Below, piece after piece: positions 9,964 to 17,868 of a DNA stretch of 22,219 nt (position 1 is the first letter of the stretch; each line of letters opens with the position of its first letter). Under the pieces are notes generated by a model. The model was not told where the DNA came from. It did no database searches and worked only from the letters and a program-made list of their open reading frames with translations. This DNA comes from a virus: positions 1-22,219 of IMG/VR virus record IMGVR_UViG_3300021404_000042, one strand, 5' to 3'. Made by a program: the position numbers and the translations under genes.

Positions 9964-10151
9964 CTATCCCTCTCCATTTCCATCGGATAACTTGCTATTG
10001 GAAAATAATAGCTTTCGTCGGTTCTTCCTGCCTTGCTCGAGTCTATCTTTGTCCTCTCCATGAGAGCAAGATATTCATCGATTTCCTTACAGAATTCTTC
10101 GTATGACTTAGGCCCACCATTAGAAGCATCAAGCGTCATATCCTCTACCAT
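9939..10151 (-). CDS. Hypothetical protein (70 aa)
   Basis: This 70-aa protein starts at ATG 10151, which overlaps the upstream TGA by one base (TGATG), so its translation is probably coupled to the gene before it. It is acidic in the first half (YEEFCKEIDEYLALMERTKI) and Ser/Pro-rich in the second. No family was recognised. The last 25 bases overlap the next gene, so its C-terminus is fixed by the coding needs of two frames. Confidence 0.5.
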   Translation of the reverse strand: MVEDMTLDASNGGPKSYEEFCKEIDEYLALMERTKIDSSKAGRTDESYYFPIASYPMEMERDRCTTQPSP

Positions 10152-10669
10152 CAGTCACAATTCTCCCATGTGAGTATCGCCTCTTGACCTGCAAAGTCAG
10201 CGAGCATATGCATGTCTACAAATACTCTATGATCGAGAGCTTTTGCTACTTCAGCTTCTGTTACATCAGGCTTGAACTTCTTTGCAAATTCACGATAATT
10301 CCATATTTCACTGCTACTAGGCTTGAAAGGCCATTGAATATCCTTAGCAGAGATACGTACATGTACCCATGCTTCAGAGCTTTCATCACGCTTCTCTTTG
10401 ATCACATCAAGAGGTACGCAATTCATTTTGAGCATATCATCTACTTTGCACGCCTCATCGAATGTCACACTTCTATAGCATCCAGGGTGAATAGCCTCTA
10501 GCCCTGTTTTTACTTGGGGTGACAGCAGTGCAGGATGAGGTAAAAGAATGCCTTCTATCTTTTGGTGAGTACAGTCTAACCCTCTCACTTGCTGCTCAAA
10601 GATAATCCCTGACTGACATGGGAGGATAAGAGCAGGATAGGGATAGTCACGAAGGTCTATAGTTTTCAC
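10151..10669 (-). CDS. Hypothetical protein, possibly DUF6210-like
   Basis: I chose the GTG at 10669 (172 aa), because it forms a GTGA four-base overlap with the upstream stop and follows GAGAGGGAG; an ATG at 10684 in the same frame is the alternative. The N-terminal phrase ALILPCQSGIIFEQQVRG, then LDCTHQKIEGILLP resembles, from memory, the opening of DUF6210 proteins (a strand, Gly-x-x-(Y/F)-x-x-Q, then a Cys/His and EG). The rest contains a helical C-terminal part (about 118-165). The function is unknown. The family label needs a profile search. Confidence 0.55.
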   Translation of the reverse strand: MKTIDLRDYPYPALILPCQSGIIFEQQVRGLDCTHQKIEGILLPHPALLSPQVKTGLEAIHPGCYRSVTFDEACKVDDMLKMNCVPLDVIKEKRDESSEAWVHVRISAKDIQWPFKPSSSEIWNYREFAKKFKPDVTEAEVAKALDHRVFVDMHMLADFAGQEAILTWENCD

Positions 10670-10863
10670 GCTCTCCCTCTCCATTTCCTGCTCATACGAG
10701 CTTGGCTTTTCCTCTTCTTTGGTCTAGGCCCTGAGAACGTGACACCAGGCTTGCAAAATGTCTCATACGTGCTAGCAAATATCGATGGCCCTAATTTCAT
10801 GTACTCAAGAATAACTTGCGTGCGTAACTCAGCAGTCTCTTGATTGTCCTGATCACTCATCAT
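10666..10863 (-). CDS. Hypothetical protein with basic tail (65 aa)
   Basis: This 65-aa protein starts at ATG 10863 (or the adjacent ATG 10860), overlapping a TGA by four bases, with GGAG upstream. Residues 1-40 are acidic to neutral and helical. Residues 44-65 are strongly basic (PRPKKRKSQARMSRKWRGRA), a likely nucleic-acid-binding tail. No family was recognised. Its start is tuned to the end of the reading frame that follows an amber codon upstream, which supports that frame being translated. Confidence 0.55.
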   Translation of the reverse strand: MMSDQDNQETAELRTQVILEYMKLGPSIFASTYETFCKPGVTFSGPRPKKRKSQARMSRKWRGRA

Positions 10864-11804: not shown

Positions 11805-12310
11805 ACTCTACCCTCTAGTTGGAGCATCCCTATAAAATGCACAATCCCCTTATCTTCAACAACAACGCACTTTCTCCCATCTATCTTCCGAATATCCCCA
11901 ATGTTATGCCTGATCATGAACTCCTCAGCATCGTCTCCCATGAAATGGACACCAGCCCCTGACATCCCGTAGAGACCATATTTTACCCCAAACCATATGC
12001 CAGGTCTGCCATTAGGAAAGTCATTCAGGCCATACGAGCCACCTGTTATTGTGGCAATGTAGGCTTTAGTCCCACCCGAGCCGTGCTCTTCTAGCTCATC
12101 TATGGCTTGGTAGAGAATCACATCAGCATCATCGTCTTGAGGTGGAAGGTGAAATATCGCTTTGTCAGAGGGCCCCGGCGCGAATGTCATAGGATAGGCT
12201 CTCTTCAACAACTCATTGAGAGCTTCTAGTCTCTGCTCACGTGTATGATGCTTACGCATGTCTTGTGACCTAATATGCCGTTCAACGCCGTGAAATCTAT
12301 CCAATTGCAT
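11801..12310 (-). CDS. Hypothetical protein, Gly/His-rich globular (169 aa)
   Basis: This 169-aa protein starts at ATG 12310 inside the end of the portal gene, with AAAGGA seven bases upstream. A basic helical N-terminus (1-40) is followed by an alpha/beta part with several Gly-rich turns (TITGGSYGLNDFPNGRPG, WFGVKYGLYGMSGAGVHFMG) and a C-terminal strand pair. The mixed globular make-up suggests an enzyme or ligand-binding domain, but I do not recognise catalytic residues or a family. It is the first gene of the accessory stretch that separates portal from scaffold. Confidence 0.6.
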   Translation of the reverse strand: MQLDRFHGVERHIRSQDMRKHHTREQRLEALNELLKRAYPMTFAPGPSDKAIFHLPPQDDDADVILYQAIDELEEHGSGGTKAYIATITGGSYGLNDFPNGRPGIWFGVKYGLYGMSGAGVHFMGDDAEEFMIRHNIGDIRKIDGRKCVVVEDKGIVHFIGMLQLEGRV

Positions 12311-13871
12311 TTAGCTGTCCTTTCTGCCCTACAGGAAGCTGCCCACTCTGCTGTTGAGTGCCTTGACTTGGCTGGCCACCCTCTTGCACAAGCTCAGGTG
12401 CGGGTTTTGGCTGTCCTGGGAGTGCTGGTACACCTATGGGCGATTCTGGCAACTGAGGAGCAAGAGCCGCTTTCTGAGCAGCTTCCTCAGCACAAAGCTT
12501 TGCCTCTTCCTCAGGATCGTAGTTTAGCTCTCTCATGCGCGTCGTTTTGCTCACACCTAGCTCACCTTTGGCAAGAGAAGCCTGTACATCATGTAGCTCA
12601 TCTGTTGGCAACGGATCTGTCCAACCAAGTGTGATATCGATATCCTCACCTTTGAAGTTGGCTAATGTCAGCAGAGCTTGTGATACCTCTATCATTGTCT
12701 CGCCGTACAAACATCTCATCTTGTTCATCTTCTTGAGCAGAGATTGAAACATGAGCCGTATGGTGATACCTGGAATATTCCCACTCGGCATATTTGCAGT
12801 CCGACCTGATGCGATCATCGGGACGCCTGTCAGCTCCTCAACTTCACCACGCAAGTCACCGGCAAAGGCGCGAGAATTGGCTGTATTGGTCTGCAAGTTC
12901 ACGGACGTAATCTTGCTCTCCAATTCAGGTAGCTGAGTGATTTTGTTTGGATGTACATCAATGGTGCCCTCACCTACCCCATTTGAGTACAGGATGCGCT
13001 GTATCTTCTCTGTGATATTGATGTTGCTGTTTACTACATTGATCGCTTCATTGACACCTATGAGGCTCTTGCTGACACCGGGGTAGCCCCAGAAGTCGTT
13101 GGGTTTTGGGAGATTCTGATTGCTGAAAATGGGAGGGAATGGATAATTCCATGGGATAGGCTCACCTGCAGGTACCCAGTTGCCTTTGGTTGGTTCCATG
13201 TCGGTAGCGCTCGATACTTGCGTCCAGTGCTGAACGCTCCACGTGATCTTTGTGTTTGTGCCGACTGCATTCTGATAGGTGGCATCCTGAGCGGGGACTT
13301 GTTCAGGCTTTACCATCGAGATCTCTTCACGATAGTAAATCTTTTGAGGCTTGCCATCCGGCCCATTTGCTCCTTCAGAGCTGTATTCTAGGCAGTACAA
13401 GAGCACCATTTGACAGTTTTGCGGAGCTGTTTGCACGCTTACGATGGATGGATCAATCTCAACCAAGCTGAATGTTCTGTTTGGGCCTGTGCCTTCACCT
13501 GGGACTATCCTCAAGAATGCGCGGCCTGCCATCTCCCCATTCATGATCCATCGCTGTAAGAGCGGGATGCGAGCCTCTTTGCGTCCCCACGTCTTGTCTA
13601 GCAGCTCTTGAGCACCGGCGGGCGCGTTCTGCTCTGCTGAGATCTCTACCTCATCACCAAAGACGAAATTGACCACAGCGTCAACGGCAGGCTGTACCTC
13701 GTTACCCATCACATTCGGATCAGGCTCGTCTTCAAGCTGCTCGAATGGCTTCTTTAAATCGCCCTCGTATGCTTGCCATGCGCGTTGAATAGCCTTTTGC
13801 CGTTTGCGATCCTCATCCGTTATATCGTAGCTTGGTTGATTGGTCTGTGGCGGCGCTTCTGTGGTATTCAT
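12297..13871 (-). CDS. Portal protein (SPP1 gp6-like)
   Basis: This 524-aa protein starts at ATG 13871 in an ATGA overlap with the zinc protein upstream. The length and pattern fit SPP1-type portals. There is an N-terminal wing (about 20-110, with NEVQPAVDAVVNFVFGDEV), a strand-rich region (about 110-260), the phrase GYPGVSKSLIGVNEAINVVN (about 263-282) typical of the start of the stem and clip region, and a helix with GEVEELTGVPMIASG (about 339-353). The C-terminal 60 residues are Pro/Gln/Gly-rich and probably flexible. The portal is the ring at one capsid vertex through which the terminase drives DNA. The gene lies four small genes after the packaging proteins. Confidence 0.88.
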   Translation of the reverse strand: MNTTEAPPQTNQPSYDITDEDRKRQKAIQRAWQAYEGDLKKPFEQLEDEPDPNVMGNEVQPAVDAVVNFVFGDEVEISAEQNAPAGAQELLDKTWGRKEARIPLLQRWIMNGEMAGRAFLRIVPGEGTGPNRTFSLVEIDPSIVSVQTAPQNCQMVLLYCLEYSSEGANGPDGKPQKIYYREEISMVKPEQVPAQDATYQNAVGTNTKITWSVQHWTQVSSATDMEPTKGNWVPAGEPIPWNYPFPPIFSNQNLPKPNDFWGYPGVSKSLIGVNEAINVVNSNINITEKIQRILYSNGVGEGTIDVHPNKITQLPELESKITSVNLQTNTANSRAFAGDLRGEVEELTGVPMIASGRTANMPSGNIPGITIRLMFQSLLKKMNKMRCLYGETMIEVSQALLTLANFKGEDIDITLGWTDPLPTDELHDVQASLAKGELGVSKTTRMRELNYDPEEEAKLCAEEAAQKAALAPQLPESPIGVPALPGQPKPAPELVQEGGQPSQGTQQQSGQLPVGQKGQLNAIG

Positions 13872-14380: not shown

Positions 14381-14623
14381 CTAAATTATCCTGTTGCTGT
14401 ACCGTACGCTAGAAGGCCCATTCACGACACTTGTGTACACTTCTGCCTGGAACCTCCAATCGATACGAAGACCTGGGAATTGTGTCTTGAAATGATTGCT
14501 TTTCGATACGAGCATAGCTATCATCTCCTCTTGAAGCGCGTGAAATGCTTCTTTTTCACGCTTGTCAAGCTTCTCGAAGTCGCCCTGCTCAAGCAGCTTT
14601 GTATTGTCCTGGGTGATATCCAT
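14381..14623 (-). CDS. Hypothetical protein (80 aa)
   Basis: This 80-aa protein starts at ATG 14623 immediately after the preceding TAA, with AGAGG nine bases upstream. The first 45 residues are a charged helix (LLEQGDFEKLDKREKEAFHA, then LQEEMIAMLV). The rest contains aromatic and basic residues with possible strands (GLRIDWRFQAEVYTSVVNG). No family was recognised. It belongs to the small genes between the packaging nuclease-like gene and the portal. Confidence 0.55.
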   Translation of the reverse strand: MDITQDNTKLLEQGDFEKLDKREKEAFHALQEEMIAMLVSKSNHFKTQFPGLRIDWRFQAEVYTSVVNGPSSVRYSNRII

Positions 14624-14966: not shown

Positions 14967-15683
14967 TCAATAAATCCTCTCGCTATGACGTACTTGCTCA
15001 CTGAACGGGTCTTCTAAGCATGATAGCCCAAGTGCTGTTGCAAGGTCATCGTGCTTGCCTTTTTTAGCCCCGTATGTGCTGCTGCCCTCATCTCCCACCT
15101 TGATCTCATAGACTCGAAGCTCTTCTACAGTCACTTTCATTTCTGGTGTGTCTGGACCATGTACACGTTTCTCTTGCAGAAGAGATTGCAGTCCTGACAC
15201 CAGGAACTTCTTAGCCATGACGCCTGTTTTGCGATTGTACTTCTCACCATGAGAGAAAGTGATAGGCTTGAGCCGTATGTGCTTGCACTGTGGACGTAGG
15301 GCTATCTCTTTCTTTAGCATCTCGTATACAGGCTTTCCGACCCCCGTCACATCGATCAGCACTCTCACATTGCGATTTGCGAACATCGGACTACAAAGCA
15401 TATCCGCAATGATGATAGCCACGTCTGGATAGCTCGTTCCAAGTGGCAAGCGTGCGATATGCCTGACTGTGTACTCAGATCTCAGCACAGGCTCAGCACC
15501 CTTTGGCGGTATCCAGTTCCCTTTCACGTCGTGATGGCCGAGTGTAGGCTTGCCTCTGTACCGGATCTTGCCTGTGTCGATTTGAGAGACTTCGCACACA
15601 CAGACCGCAGTGGGGTCGTTTACTTGGCCCACATCAATTCCGACCGTGACCGGATTTAGCCTGCCTGTAATTGCAAGTCCCAC
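14967..15683 (-). CDS. Stand-alone RNase H-fold nuclease-like protein (terminase nuclease domain-like)
   Basis: This 238-aa protein starts at GTG 15683, overlaps the large terminase by 28 bases, and has AAGGA about nine bases upstream. It reads like a free-standing terminase nuclease domain. Strand 1 is VTVGIDVGQVNDPTAV (Asp17), a later strand is VRVLIDVTGVGKPV (Asp111), and the C-terminal part has GKHDDLATALGL (Asp212, Asp213). These three acidic positions match those that bind two metals in the terminase RNase H-like fold. No ATPase motif is present. Position directly after a large terminase whose own nuclease residues are altered suggests it may cut DNA during packaging in partnership with that protein. 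This role is inference; a general RNase H-like resolvase role is an alternative. Confidence 0.75.
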   Translation of the reverse strand: MGLAITGRLNPVTVGIDVGQVNDPTAVCVCEVSQIDTGKIRYRGKPTLGHHDVKGNWIPPKGAEPVLRSEYTVRHIARLPLGTSYPDVAIIIADMLCSPMFANRNVRVLIDVTGVGKPVYEMLKKEIALRPQCKHIRLKPITFSHGEKYNRKTGVMAKKFLVSGLQSLLQEKRVHGPDTPEMKVTVEELRVYEIKVGDEGSSTYGAKKGKHDDLATALGLSCLEDPFSEQVRHSERIY

Positions 15684-17089
15684 TGCTCTACGTCCTTCTT
15701 AATAATCTGTTCTATGTCTTCTGTTCTAAATGCATCTGACGACCCGTACATGATCATTAGGTTAGTTAGTGCCCACACACATGCTCCAAATCTATCTGGC
15801 GTCCTCTCACCTTGTAACCAGTTGCATTGTTGATCTTCGAGATCTGGGAAGGCACCCAGGTGTGAGATTGCCTTTTTCTGGTAGAGATTTGAGATCGTCT
15901 CTGCTAGCGGTTGCCTCCCGCGTGACGCTCTCACTATCTCGAATGGCACATGCCTCATGCCGCTTGACTCTGCTGTGCTTTTGACTACAGACCCTACCAT
16001 CTCCCCACCGTGATTTATCTCCCCAACAATGCAGTCTGCTTCAAACTTTTTGTAGGCTTCTAGTGCCTCGCTTGCCCATTCGTTCGGAGTCCCAGGTAGG
16101 CTATAATCCGCTAAGACATAGCCACGATTGTCAGTCCCCAAGCCTGCTACGATGATGCCAGCTTCAGCAGGTCCTTCTATGTCTGTATTGCCATTGTCAG
16201 GCGGATTAATTGCGACTACAATGCGCTTGAGCTCAGGATATTCCTCAAATGTCAGACGATTATCTTCGATCCAATCCCGTTTCCACAAAGCCCCGTCAAT
16301 ATCATCAATAATTTCTCCTTCAATCTCTTGTCTGCCTAATCGCGTCCCTGTATATCTTCTCTCAATATCTCGTATAAATCTTTTTGCTAAATTCTCTTGA
16401 TTGTCATACATAGAACCATTTGTAACATGTGTTGTCGGATCTTTCACTAACAGCTTCATCGCTTTGGTATTGCGTGGCGTCGTTGTGACTACACATTGCG
16501 GTTCTACACCAGGCGATGGATAGATGCGCAATCCGAAGGATAGTTGATCCCAAGCATCGTCATACTGCCAACTTGCCCTTTCATCAGCCCAAGCGAACGA
16601 ATGCTGAGGACCGCGCATCTGATCCGGTTCGTCTGCGCTATAGGTTGTGGCATACGAGCCGTTTGGCCAGACGAGCAAACGCTTGGAAGGATAGTAGGTG
16701 GGTGTAAACCAAGGTGGCGATATCGGGATGATACCGGACCGTCCCTTGATCATCACATCGCGTACGTCTGCTACTGTTCTTCCCACTAAAGCGATGTGAC
16801 ACCCGGGGTAAGCTTCTGCCTTCTCAATGACCCATTCCGCGCCCGTTCTAGTCTTTCCCCATCCACGACCAGCCTTGATAACCCACGTTGACCAGTTCCC
16901 CTCGGGTGCGAGCTGCTTATCTCTTGCCCACGCCTTCCAGGTGTACTTGAGCCTGAGAGCGCGTTCCCGTGGGCTTTTCTTAATGTACTCATGCTTTCGT
17001 TTCTTGCTCCAAGAAGCAAATTCACGAAAGAGCCTGATTTCCTGATCAGGCGTGATATCAGCTTTGGTTAGACGGCTCTTTGTCTTCAT
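15656..17089 (-). CDS. terL: Terminase large subunit with altered nuclease residues
   Basis: This 477-aa protein starts at ATG 17089 and overlaps the small terminase gene by 32 bases. The ATPase is complete: Walker A AGRGWGKT (73-80), Walker B with WADE (Asp169, Glu170) and a coupling motif TTTPR (202-206). It drives DNA into the capsid at the portal. The C-terminal nuclease domain is recognisable (GIIVAGLGTDNRGYVLAD, GEINHGGEMVG with Glu357, DRFGACVWALTNLM). However, the first catalytic Asp, expected in a V-D-P motif, is Asn295 (INP), and the Asp expected in DRxDALVWAL is Gly435. Two of three metal ligands are therefore missing by comparison with the family as I know it. The rest of the gene shows no frameshift or stop. 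Confidence 0.92.
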   Translation of the reverse strand: MKTKSRLTKADITPDQEIRLFREFASWSKKRKHEYIKKSPRERALRLKYTWKAWARDKQLAPEGNWSTWVIKAGRGWGKTRTGAEWVIEKAEAYPGCHIALVGRTVADVRDVMIKGRSGIIPISPPWFTPTYYPSKRLLVWPNGSYATTYSADEPDQMRGPQHSFAWADERASWQYDDAWDQLSFGLRIYPSPGVEPQCVVTTTPRNTKAMKLLVKDPTTHVTNGSMYDNQENLAKRFIRDIERRYTGTRLGRQEIEGEIIDDIDGALWKRDWIEDNRLTFEEYPELKRIVVAINPPDNGNTDIEGPAEAGIIVAGLGTDNRGYVLADYSLPGTPNEWASEALEAYKKFEADCIVGEINHGGEMVGSVVKSTAESSGMRHVPFEIVRASRGRQPLAETISNLYQKKAISHLGAFPDLEDQQCNWLQGERTPDRFGACVWALTNLMIMYGSSDAFRTEDIEQIIKKDVEQWDLQLQAG

Positions 17090-17648
17090 TGTCTATAGCC
17101 GCTGCGAGATCTGCCAACAGCTCATCCTTTGCCTTTTGTGCCAAGTCTTCAAGTTGGGCATGGATATTAACCTGTGGCTTGTCTTTATACTCTGGAAGAT
17201 TCGCTTTCGCCCAGGCCAAGGCTAAGCTATCGCTGTTTTTGGGAACCATGACCTTAGCACCTCGCTTGGTCATAGGTCTCCCCCGGCTGTCGTGCTTCTG
17301 CTCACCTTCCTCATCCAAGACAGGCTCCGTCTCGTAAACTACTTGACCCATACTCACCATCGGTTCTTCCCAGCCTATAATGCCTCTCTTGTAAATTGAG
17401 CTGCGACCTACATCCCTCGCTCTTTCAAGTGCATTATCCCATTCTTGTGCAAACTTCTGATCTTTTTCACGCCAATCATAGACAGTAGTGCGATCTCTAT
17501 CAATATGCTCACAGGCAAGAGACACGGTAGGATCTTCGCGAAGGAATGCGAGAAATTTTTCTTTCGCCTCTTTGCGCTCAGCCTCTCTGCTTAACGCACG
17601 CGTAGGGCTGTTGGATTTGTTGGATTTACGCTCATTGTCCGTTTCCAT
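17058..17648 (-). CDS. terS: Terminase small subunit (HTH DNA-binding)
   Basis: I chose ATG 17648 (196 aa), eight bases after GAGGG; a TTG two codons earlier is also in frame. Residues 28-65 form a helix-turn-helix (FLAFLREDPTVSLACEHIDR, then DRTTVYDWREKD). The phrase ARDVGRSSIYKRGIIGWEEP (78-97) followed by a strand pair and NSDSLALAWAKANLPEYKDK (139-158) is typical of small terminases of the phBC6A51-like type. There is a charged C-terminal tail. The protein recognises the packaging site and recruits the large subunit. The gene lies immediately before terL with a 32-base overlap, the usual order. An insertion between the HTH and C-terminal part (about 98-135) is Glu/Lys-rich. Confidence 0.82.
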   Translation of the reverse strand: METDNERKSNKSNSPTRALSREAERKEAKEKFLAFLREDPTVSLACEHIDRDRTTVYDWREKDQKFAQEWDNALERARDVGRSSIYKRGIIGWEEPMVSMGQVVYETEPVLDEEGEQKHDSRGRPMTKRGAKVMVPKNSDSLALAWAKANLPEYKDKPQVNIHAQLEDLAQKAKDELLADLAAAIDNEDKEPSNQS

Positions 17649-17868
17649 GTGCAACGCCCTCTAGAATAGCAGACACGTTATACAATTCACTCTGTGTCAA
17701 CTTCCCACCCATTCTAATCCTCAGTGATAGATATGCCGCTTCTGCTTGATCAAATGAGCTGTACCGTTCACGCGTGACGTACATCTGCTTGGGTTGTCCT
17801 ACCTCATTTGTTGGTGATGACTCAATAATTTGTGGGCCTTTTGCGCCCATGATCAGACGGTAGCTCAT
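17632..17868 (-). CDS. Hypothetical protein (78 aa)
   Basis: This 78-aa protein starts at ATG 17868 in an ATGA overlap with the upstream gene and ends 17 bases into the small terminase gene. A strand-like N-terminus (MSYRLIMGAKGPQIIES) is followed by a Pro/Gln segment and a helical half (SFDQAEAAYLSLRIRMGGKL). No family was recognised. It directly precedes the packaging genes. Confidence 0.55.
   Translation of the reverse strand: MSYRLIMGAKGPQIIESSPTNEVGQPKQMYVTRERYSSFDQAEAAYLSLRIRMGGKLTQSELYNVSAILEGVAHGNGQ

Follow-up and report, generated by a model that had tools for sequence, protein, structure and literature searches.

A viral terminase predicted to divide DNA pumping and DNA cutting between a chimeric motor protein and a separate nuclease

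Analysis of the packaging genes of IMG/VR virus record IMGVR_UViG_3300021404_000042 (the whole 22,219-base stretch is referred to here as the window) suggests that this virus encodes a chimeric split terminase. In this arrangement the large terminase subunit TerL would carry the motor together with a catalytically dead RNase H domain, while the predicted cutter is a second protein of 238 amino acids encoded by the following gene. Based on the sequences and on structural models, we place the probability of this reading at roughly 80%. The genes of the window lie mostly on the minus strand and include those for an integrase, the small terminase TerS, TerL, the nuclease, several small proteins, an SPP1-type portal, a scaffold and a capsid protein. 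An earlier note, drawn up from the DNA letters alone, had proposed that motor and packaging nuclease are split between two proteins, and this proposal gains support from sequence comparisons, protein families, models and relatives.

Results

The TerL gene (15656..17089, minus strand) encodes a full-length large terminase of 477 amino acids that matches the TerL proteins of D6E, Sf6 and T4 and was modeled by AlphaFold2 (AF2) with a predicted local distance difference test (pLDDT) score of 88. Its P-loop ATPase domain (residues 71-275, 16265..16879, minus strand; Terminase_6N, E value 1.4e-20) contains the Walker A sequence GRGWGKT and the Walker B sequence WADE. The C-terminal RNase H fold is also present (residues 286-446, 15752..16234, minus strand; Terminase_6C, E value 5.8e-6; Z score 16.9 over 165 residues to the Sf6 nuclease), but the three metal-binding acids of such domains are not all retained, the residues at these positions being N295, E357 and G435. 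The codons for Asn295 (16205..16207) and Gly435 (15785..15787), both on the minus strand and both Asp in intact relatives, read as the earlier note stated for the motifs INP and DRFGA, with the correction that Asp432 of the DRFG motif is not the residue lost. In the model, N295 ends strand 1, E357 (16019..16021, minus strand) ends strand 4 and G435 starts the last helix, which puts the lost positions at the topological sites of metal ligands; no alignment put other acids of TerL in the metal site. By residue content, the RNase H domain of TerL appears to be catalytically dead with its fold kept.

Relatives of TerL were fetched from IMG/VR and counted as distinct proteins, in a first set of 87 that was later enlarged to 150 outside the clade of the window. 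The D/E/D triad, which the earlier note gave as the consensus, is present in 150 of these 150 proteins (87/87 in the first set), and the nuclease gene occurs in none of their loci. More than 1000 bases downstream of TerL were available in 143 of 152 distinct relatives, so the absence of the nuclease gene is mostly observable. Three distinct TerL proteins do adjoin the nuclease gene (those of the window, of L002 and of the near-identical L003/L004), and all read N/(E or D)/G; no relative with an intact triad was found beside this neighbor. The retention of Glu357 that was noted earlier holds for the window, whereas L002 and L003/L004 have Asp at this position, a conservative change. Sequencing error is unlikely, as the substitutions recur in several independent contigs. 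In the TerL tree, the dead proteins group as a single clade (100/100) that lies within the intact TerLs. A close intact-type TerL of 795 amino acids (L215:6001-8388) contains an apparent intein that ends in VHNC directly before DANVW, the motif of the third catalytic Asp.

The neighboring nuclease gene (14967..15683, minus strand) overlaps that of TerL by 28 bases, as previously claimed. Its product matches Terminase_6C (E value 6.6e-6) and phrog_27743 (7.6e-18) and, again as claimed, has no ATPase match. Asp17, Asp111 and Asp212/213, singled out in the earlier note as candidate catalytic residues, are invariant across 26 aligned relatives. The protein was modeled (AF2 pLDDT 85) with the terminase RNase H fold and not a different one (Foldseek E value 1.3e-6), its best structural match being the TerL nuclease of G20c (VIA Z score 15.2, 158 residues, 2.5 Å). 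In this model, strand 1 ends with D17 and strand 4 with D111, and D213 is at the start of the last helix. By profile, the nuclease can be aligned to the TerL nucleases of both G20c and P74-26 in two segments, GADFGKNQD and HDD, and to that of P74-26 in a third, VADTWGVGDA. When the profiles of TerL and the separate nuclease were compared directly, the two RNase H domains did not align, and the equivalence of their residues therefore rests on the topology of both models and on the G20c/P74-26 alignment. Searches of named phages with the nuclease by tblastn gave no match at an E value of 1e-5, only weak matches short of that. We take the 238-amino acid protein to be a free-standing terminase nuclease with all of its acids, and it is predicted to make the packaging cut.

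Loci elsewhere place this nuclease in a wider setting. In nearly all of them, the upstream gene encodes an ATPase-only protein of about 250 amino acids (phrog_7579, Terminase_6N), followed by the nuclease (phrog_27743), and closer loci add an 80-amino acid gene and an SPP1-type portal. After removal of duplicates, the contigs comprised 55 of the split type, a few of them weakly classified, and 33 with one-chain homologues; such one-chain homologues of the ATPase/nuclease pair are found in Thermus phage Riverbug and Meiothermus phage MMP17. The ATPase-only and nuclease genes overlap by 13-16 bases in most split loci and lie 149-264 bases apart in L030-L032, which indicates that they are separate genes; tRNA genes suspected between the two in L030 and L032 were not found by ARAGORN. 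These observations support the assignment of the nuclease gene to a phage lineage whose large terminase consists of two proteins, an ATPase-only motor and an RNase H nuclease. The earlier note missed that the split predates the dead TerL. The single proteins of the split pair are already in databases as PHROG families, of which phrog_27743 has no assigned function.

The window resembles these split loci in having a nuclease of this family next to TerS, the 80-amino acid gene (14381..14623, minus strand), which is a conserved part of the split-terminase backbone and present in most close split-type loci, and a phrog_64 portal (12297..13871, minus strand), which is common to split-terminase loci and not to the TerL donors. 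It departs from them in the motor slot, which holds the 477-amino acid TerL instead of an ATPase-only protein of about 250 amino acids, of which only a tail of ~20 amino acids remains. Among loci with this nuclease, a full-length TerL in the motor slot is confined to the window clade, which is united in the portal tree (100/100).

Several features point to a separate origin of the motor. The closest intact TerL loci (e.g., L009-L013 and L086) lack this nuclease, the 80-amino acid gene and this portal, and the portals beside intact close TerLs are of phrog_12/phrog_2662 (three tested). TerS of the window (17058..17654, minus strand; phrog_4044, 2e-22) is 55-63% identical to that of several donor-type loci versus 30-38% to that of most split loci. 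The exception is the split locus L035, at 60% identity; this locus (L035:4630-5989) represents exchange of TerS without exchange of the motor. The imported segment is not marked by its guanine-plus-cytosine content. In one of the intact TerL loci, the first part of a 963-amino acid open reading frame (L009:2677-5568) matches a portal family, and a later part matches RNA ligase families.

In the dead TerL proteins, the final ~20 residues (AFRTEDIEQIIKKDVEQWDL, residues 453-472 of the window protein, 15674..15733, minus strand) are homologous to the C-terminal end of the ATPase-only proteins (AFRPEDIDSIVKKDIEVWSL in L018). Part of this conservation may come from the gene overlap, since the nuclease gene starts within the end of the tail; the AFRxEDI part is not included in the overlap. 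A hidden Markov model (HMM) of the ATPase-only tails gave the dead TerLs scores of 39.0, 29.3 and 29.2 bits (E values of 7.9e-11, 8.1e-8 and 9e-8), with a best score of 11.1 bits on 2000 shuffles and no meaningful match to intact TerLs. One tail match, to the intact TerL of L211, was rejected as chance, as the HMM does not find it. The counterpart of the tail in the one-chain homologues is the junction between ATPase and nuclease. By its homology to the end of the ATPase-only gene, the tail is a recombination remnant. It is also a possible docking tail; in D6E TerL, a C-terminal arm is known to regulate ATP binding (PMC5727402).

Stem and clade rates, taken on a fixed tree, show where the nuclease domain of TerL changed. 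On the stem of the dead clade, it accumulated 0.315 substitutions/site versus 0.049 in the ATPase domain, while the sister stem (L009-L013) has no such excess (0.051 for the nuclease versus 0.073 for the ATPase domain). Within the dead clade, later change shows nothing unusual (0.379 versus 0.302). For L002-L003, a pair whose synonymous rates could be used, the ratio of nonsynonymous to synonymous substitution rates (dN/dS) in the dead domain is 0.06-0.07. These values are consistent with a loss of catalysis followed by retention of a structural role.

Of the remaining genes, one of 177 amino acids at positions 10151-10684 of the window, between the portal and capsid genes, matches DUF6210 (E value 2.4e-10).

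Discussion

The sequences support an origin of the chimeric split terminase by replacement. In an ancestor of the window clade, TerS and a full-length TerL from phages with another type of portal took the place of the resident TerS and ATPase-only gene, of which the last ~20 codons were retained directly downstream of the join. The incoming nuclease domain then lost two metal ligands and was later constrained again; the resident nuclease retained all of its acids. In the resulting machine, TerL would pump DNA and its dead RNase H domain may be used structurally, in DNA grip, portal contact or motor assembly. The separate nuclease would act in trans to make the cuts that initiate and terminate packaging, and the contacts that keep it at the motor may include the grafted C-terminal tail.

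Certain points weigh against this reading. Its support is computational and comes from protein family and fold, the lost residues, the order of the genes, the homology of the tail and the substitution rates. The co-occurrence of the dead TerL with the nuclease is unreplicated, because it represents one evolutionary event. Unlike the TerL and portal trees, the nuclease tree does not recover the window clade as one group (29% of bootstrap trees), leaving its members next to L018. The dN/dS value of the dead domain rests on the single pair L002-L003, because synonymous sites were saturated in most pairs (YN00). The contigs with dead TerLs are fragments of 4-22 kb, and another nuclease or TerL may lie elsewhere in the genome.

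An elaborated version, which we offer tentatively and at somewhat less than even odds, would be a three-part terminase in which the dead domain and the grafted tail recruit and control the separate nuclease, the dead domain being kept as a grip and docking platform, with tandem nuclease copies in L040/L041 and L180 as an independent second version. In those loci (L041:5998-7364; also L040 and L180), split terminases have two nuclease genes in tandem. The first copy has all acids; in the second, Lys takes the place of the first Asp (GLKVG) in each of the two lineages, and Val that of the last Asp in L040/L041. This pairing of an intact with an altered RNase H copy parallels the window. Another split pair (L166:4851-6636) lies on a chromosomal contig of the cultured strain Lysobacter niastensis DSM 18481, where it is probably part of a prophage.

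Alternative explanations

The best-surviving alternative, although an unlikely one, is that the separate nuclease is a mere passenger or serves a different function, such as that of a RuvC-like resolvase of packaging intermediates, with the cut made by a third, unseen nuclease or with unit-length packaging that needs no cut, as in phi29. RNase H and RuvC folds are shared, RuvC-type resolvases match the separate nuclease with Z scores of about 10, the phi29 motor gp16 has a vestigial nuclease domain (PMC7672431) and the dead-TerL contigs are incomplete. However, structural matches 1-36 of the nuclease are all terminases, with the resolvases lower. The gene lies directly behind the motor, in the terminase slot, in about 50 contigs, and the one-chain homologues of Riverbug and MMP17 carry it fused. 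The invariance of its acids and the presence of TerS also count against a passenger role.

We give slightly less weight still to an active TerL nuclease that uses substitute ligands (Asp298, Glu309 or Asp432), with the second gene as a redundant helper. Asp298 is invariant in the dead clade and does not occur at that position in the aligned close intact relatives, Glu357 or its Asp replacement is retained, and Asp300 of G20c TerL, six residues past Asp294, binds a satellite zinc (PMC5389553). Glu309 and Asp432, however, are conserved in intact TerLs as well and so are not replacement ligands, and two of the three ligands of TerL have been lost together. In G20c TerL, D294N, D347N and D429N had the lowest activity, these three residues being called indispensable by the authors, whereas D300N stayed active (PMC5389553); Asn295 of the window protein is the same kind of change as D294N.

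Production of TerL and nuclease as one chain by programmed frameshifting or splicing is very improbable and was rejected: the reading frames do overlap and spliced intron-split terL genes are known in Jug phages (PMC12363816), but the genes are well apart in L030, L031 and L032, an intron would not fit where they overlap, the junctions have no conserved slippery site in common and, even if fused, the RNase H domain of TerL would be dead.

Comparison with known systems

The proposed chimeric split terminase of the window shares its ATPase and RNase H folds, and its operon position with TerS and portal, with the one-chain terminases of T4 (gp17), G20c/P74-26, D6E, Sf6 and HK97, but its TerL lacks two RNase H ligands and the complete site is on a second protein. 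A survey of jumbo phages describes the terminase nuclease domain as universal in Caudovirales (PMC7824862). With the split terminases (phrog_7579 and phrog_27743; L005, L018 and about 50 more) the window shares the nuclease, the 80-amino acid gene, the portal type and the retained ATPase tail, and it differs in the motor, here a TerL from another family that is full-length and has a dead nuclease domain.

The vestigial RNase H domain of phi29 gp16 is a further likeness, although that domain is reduced in size whereas the fold in the window TerL is complete; phi29 has no TerS, a unit-length protein-primed genome and no reported partner nuclease (PMC7672431), and the window does encode TerS. In HK97, a second, separate nuclease also takes part in the packaging cut, but gp74 is an HNH endonuclease that stimulates a TerL with an intact triad of D302, D388 and D471 (PMC9410871), whereas the second protein here is RNase H-like. 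Jug phages likewise show horizontal terL replacement and terL in pieces; there, intact TerLs are swapped and the pieces are spliced, whereas domain loss and division of labor follow in the window clade (PMC12363816). Vestigial nuclease domains (phi29), helper nucleases (HK97 gp74), terL exchange and intron-split terL are thus already known. Our partial coverage of the literature turned up intron-split terL but no account of a terminase whose ATPase and nuclease are encoded by separate genes, and none of a full-length TerL with a lost triad beside a nuclease acting in trans.

In conclusion, the cutting domain of large terminases has been treated as universal and as part of the motor chain, and how these enzymes switch between pumping and cutting is an open question. 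Pumping and cutting appear to be separated, in about 50 contigs by ATPase-only and nuclease genes and in the window clade by a dead-domain motor with a cutter in trans. Trees of TerL and annotation of the terminase as a single gene overlook one half of these enzymes, the nuclease, which is in a PHROG without assigned function. Such phages would provide a natural separation-of-function system in which cutting could be removed or added with the motor untouched, and the conserved dead domain would reveal roles of the RNase H fold besides cutting.
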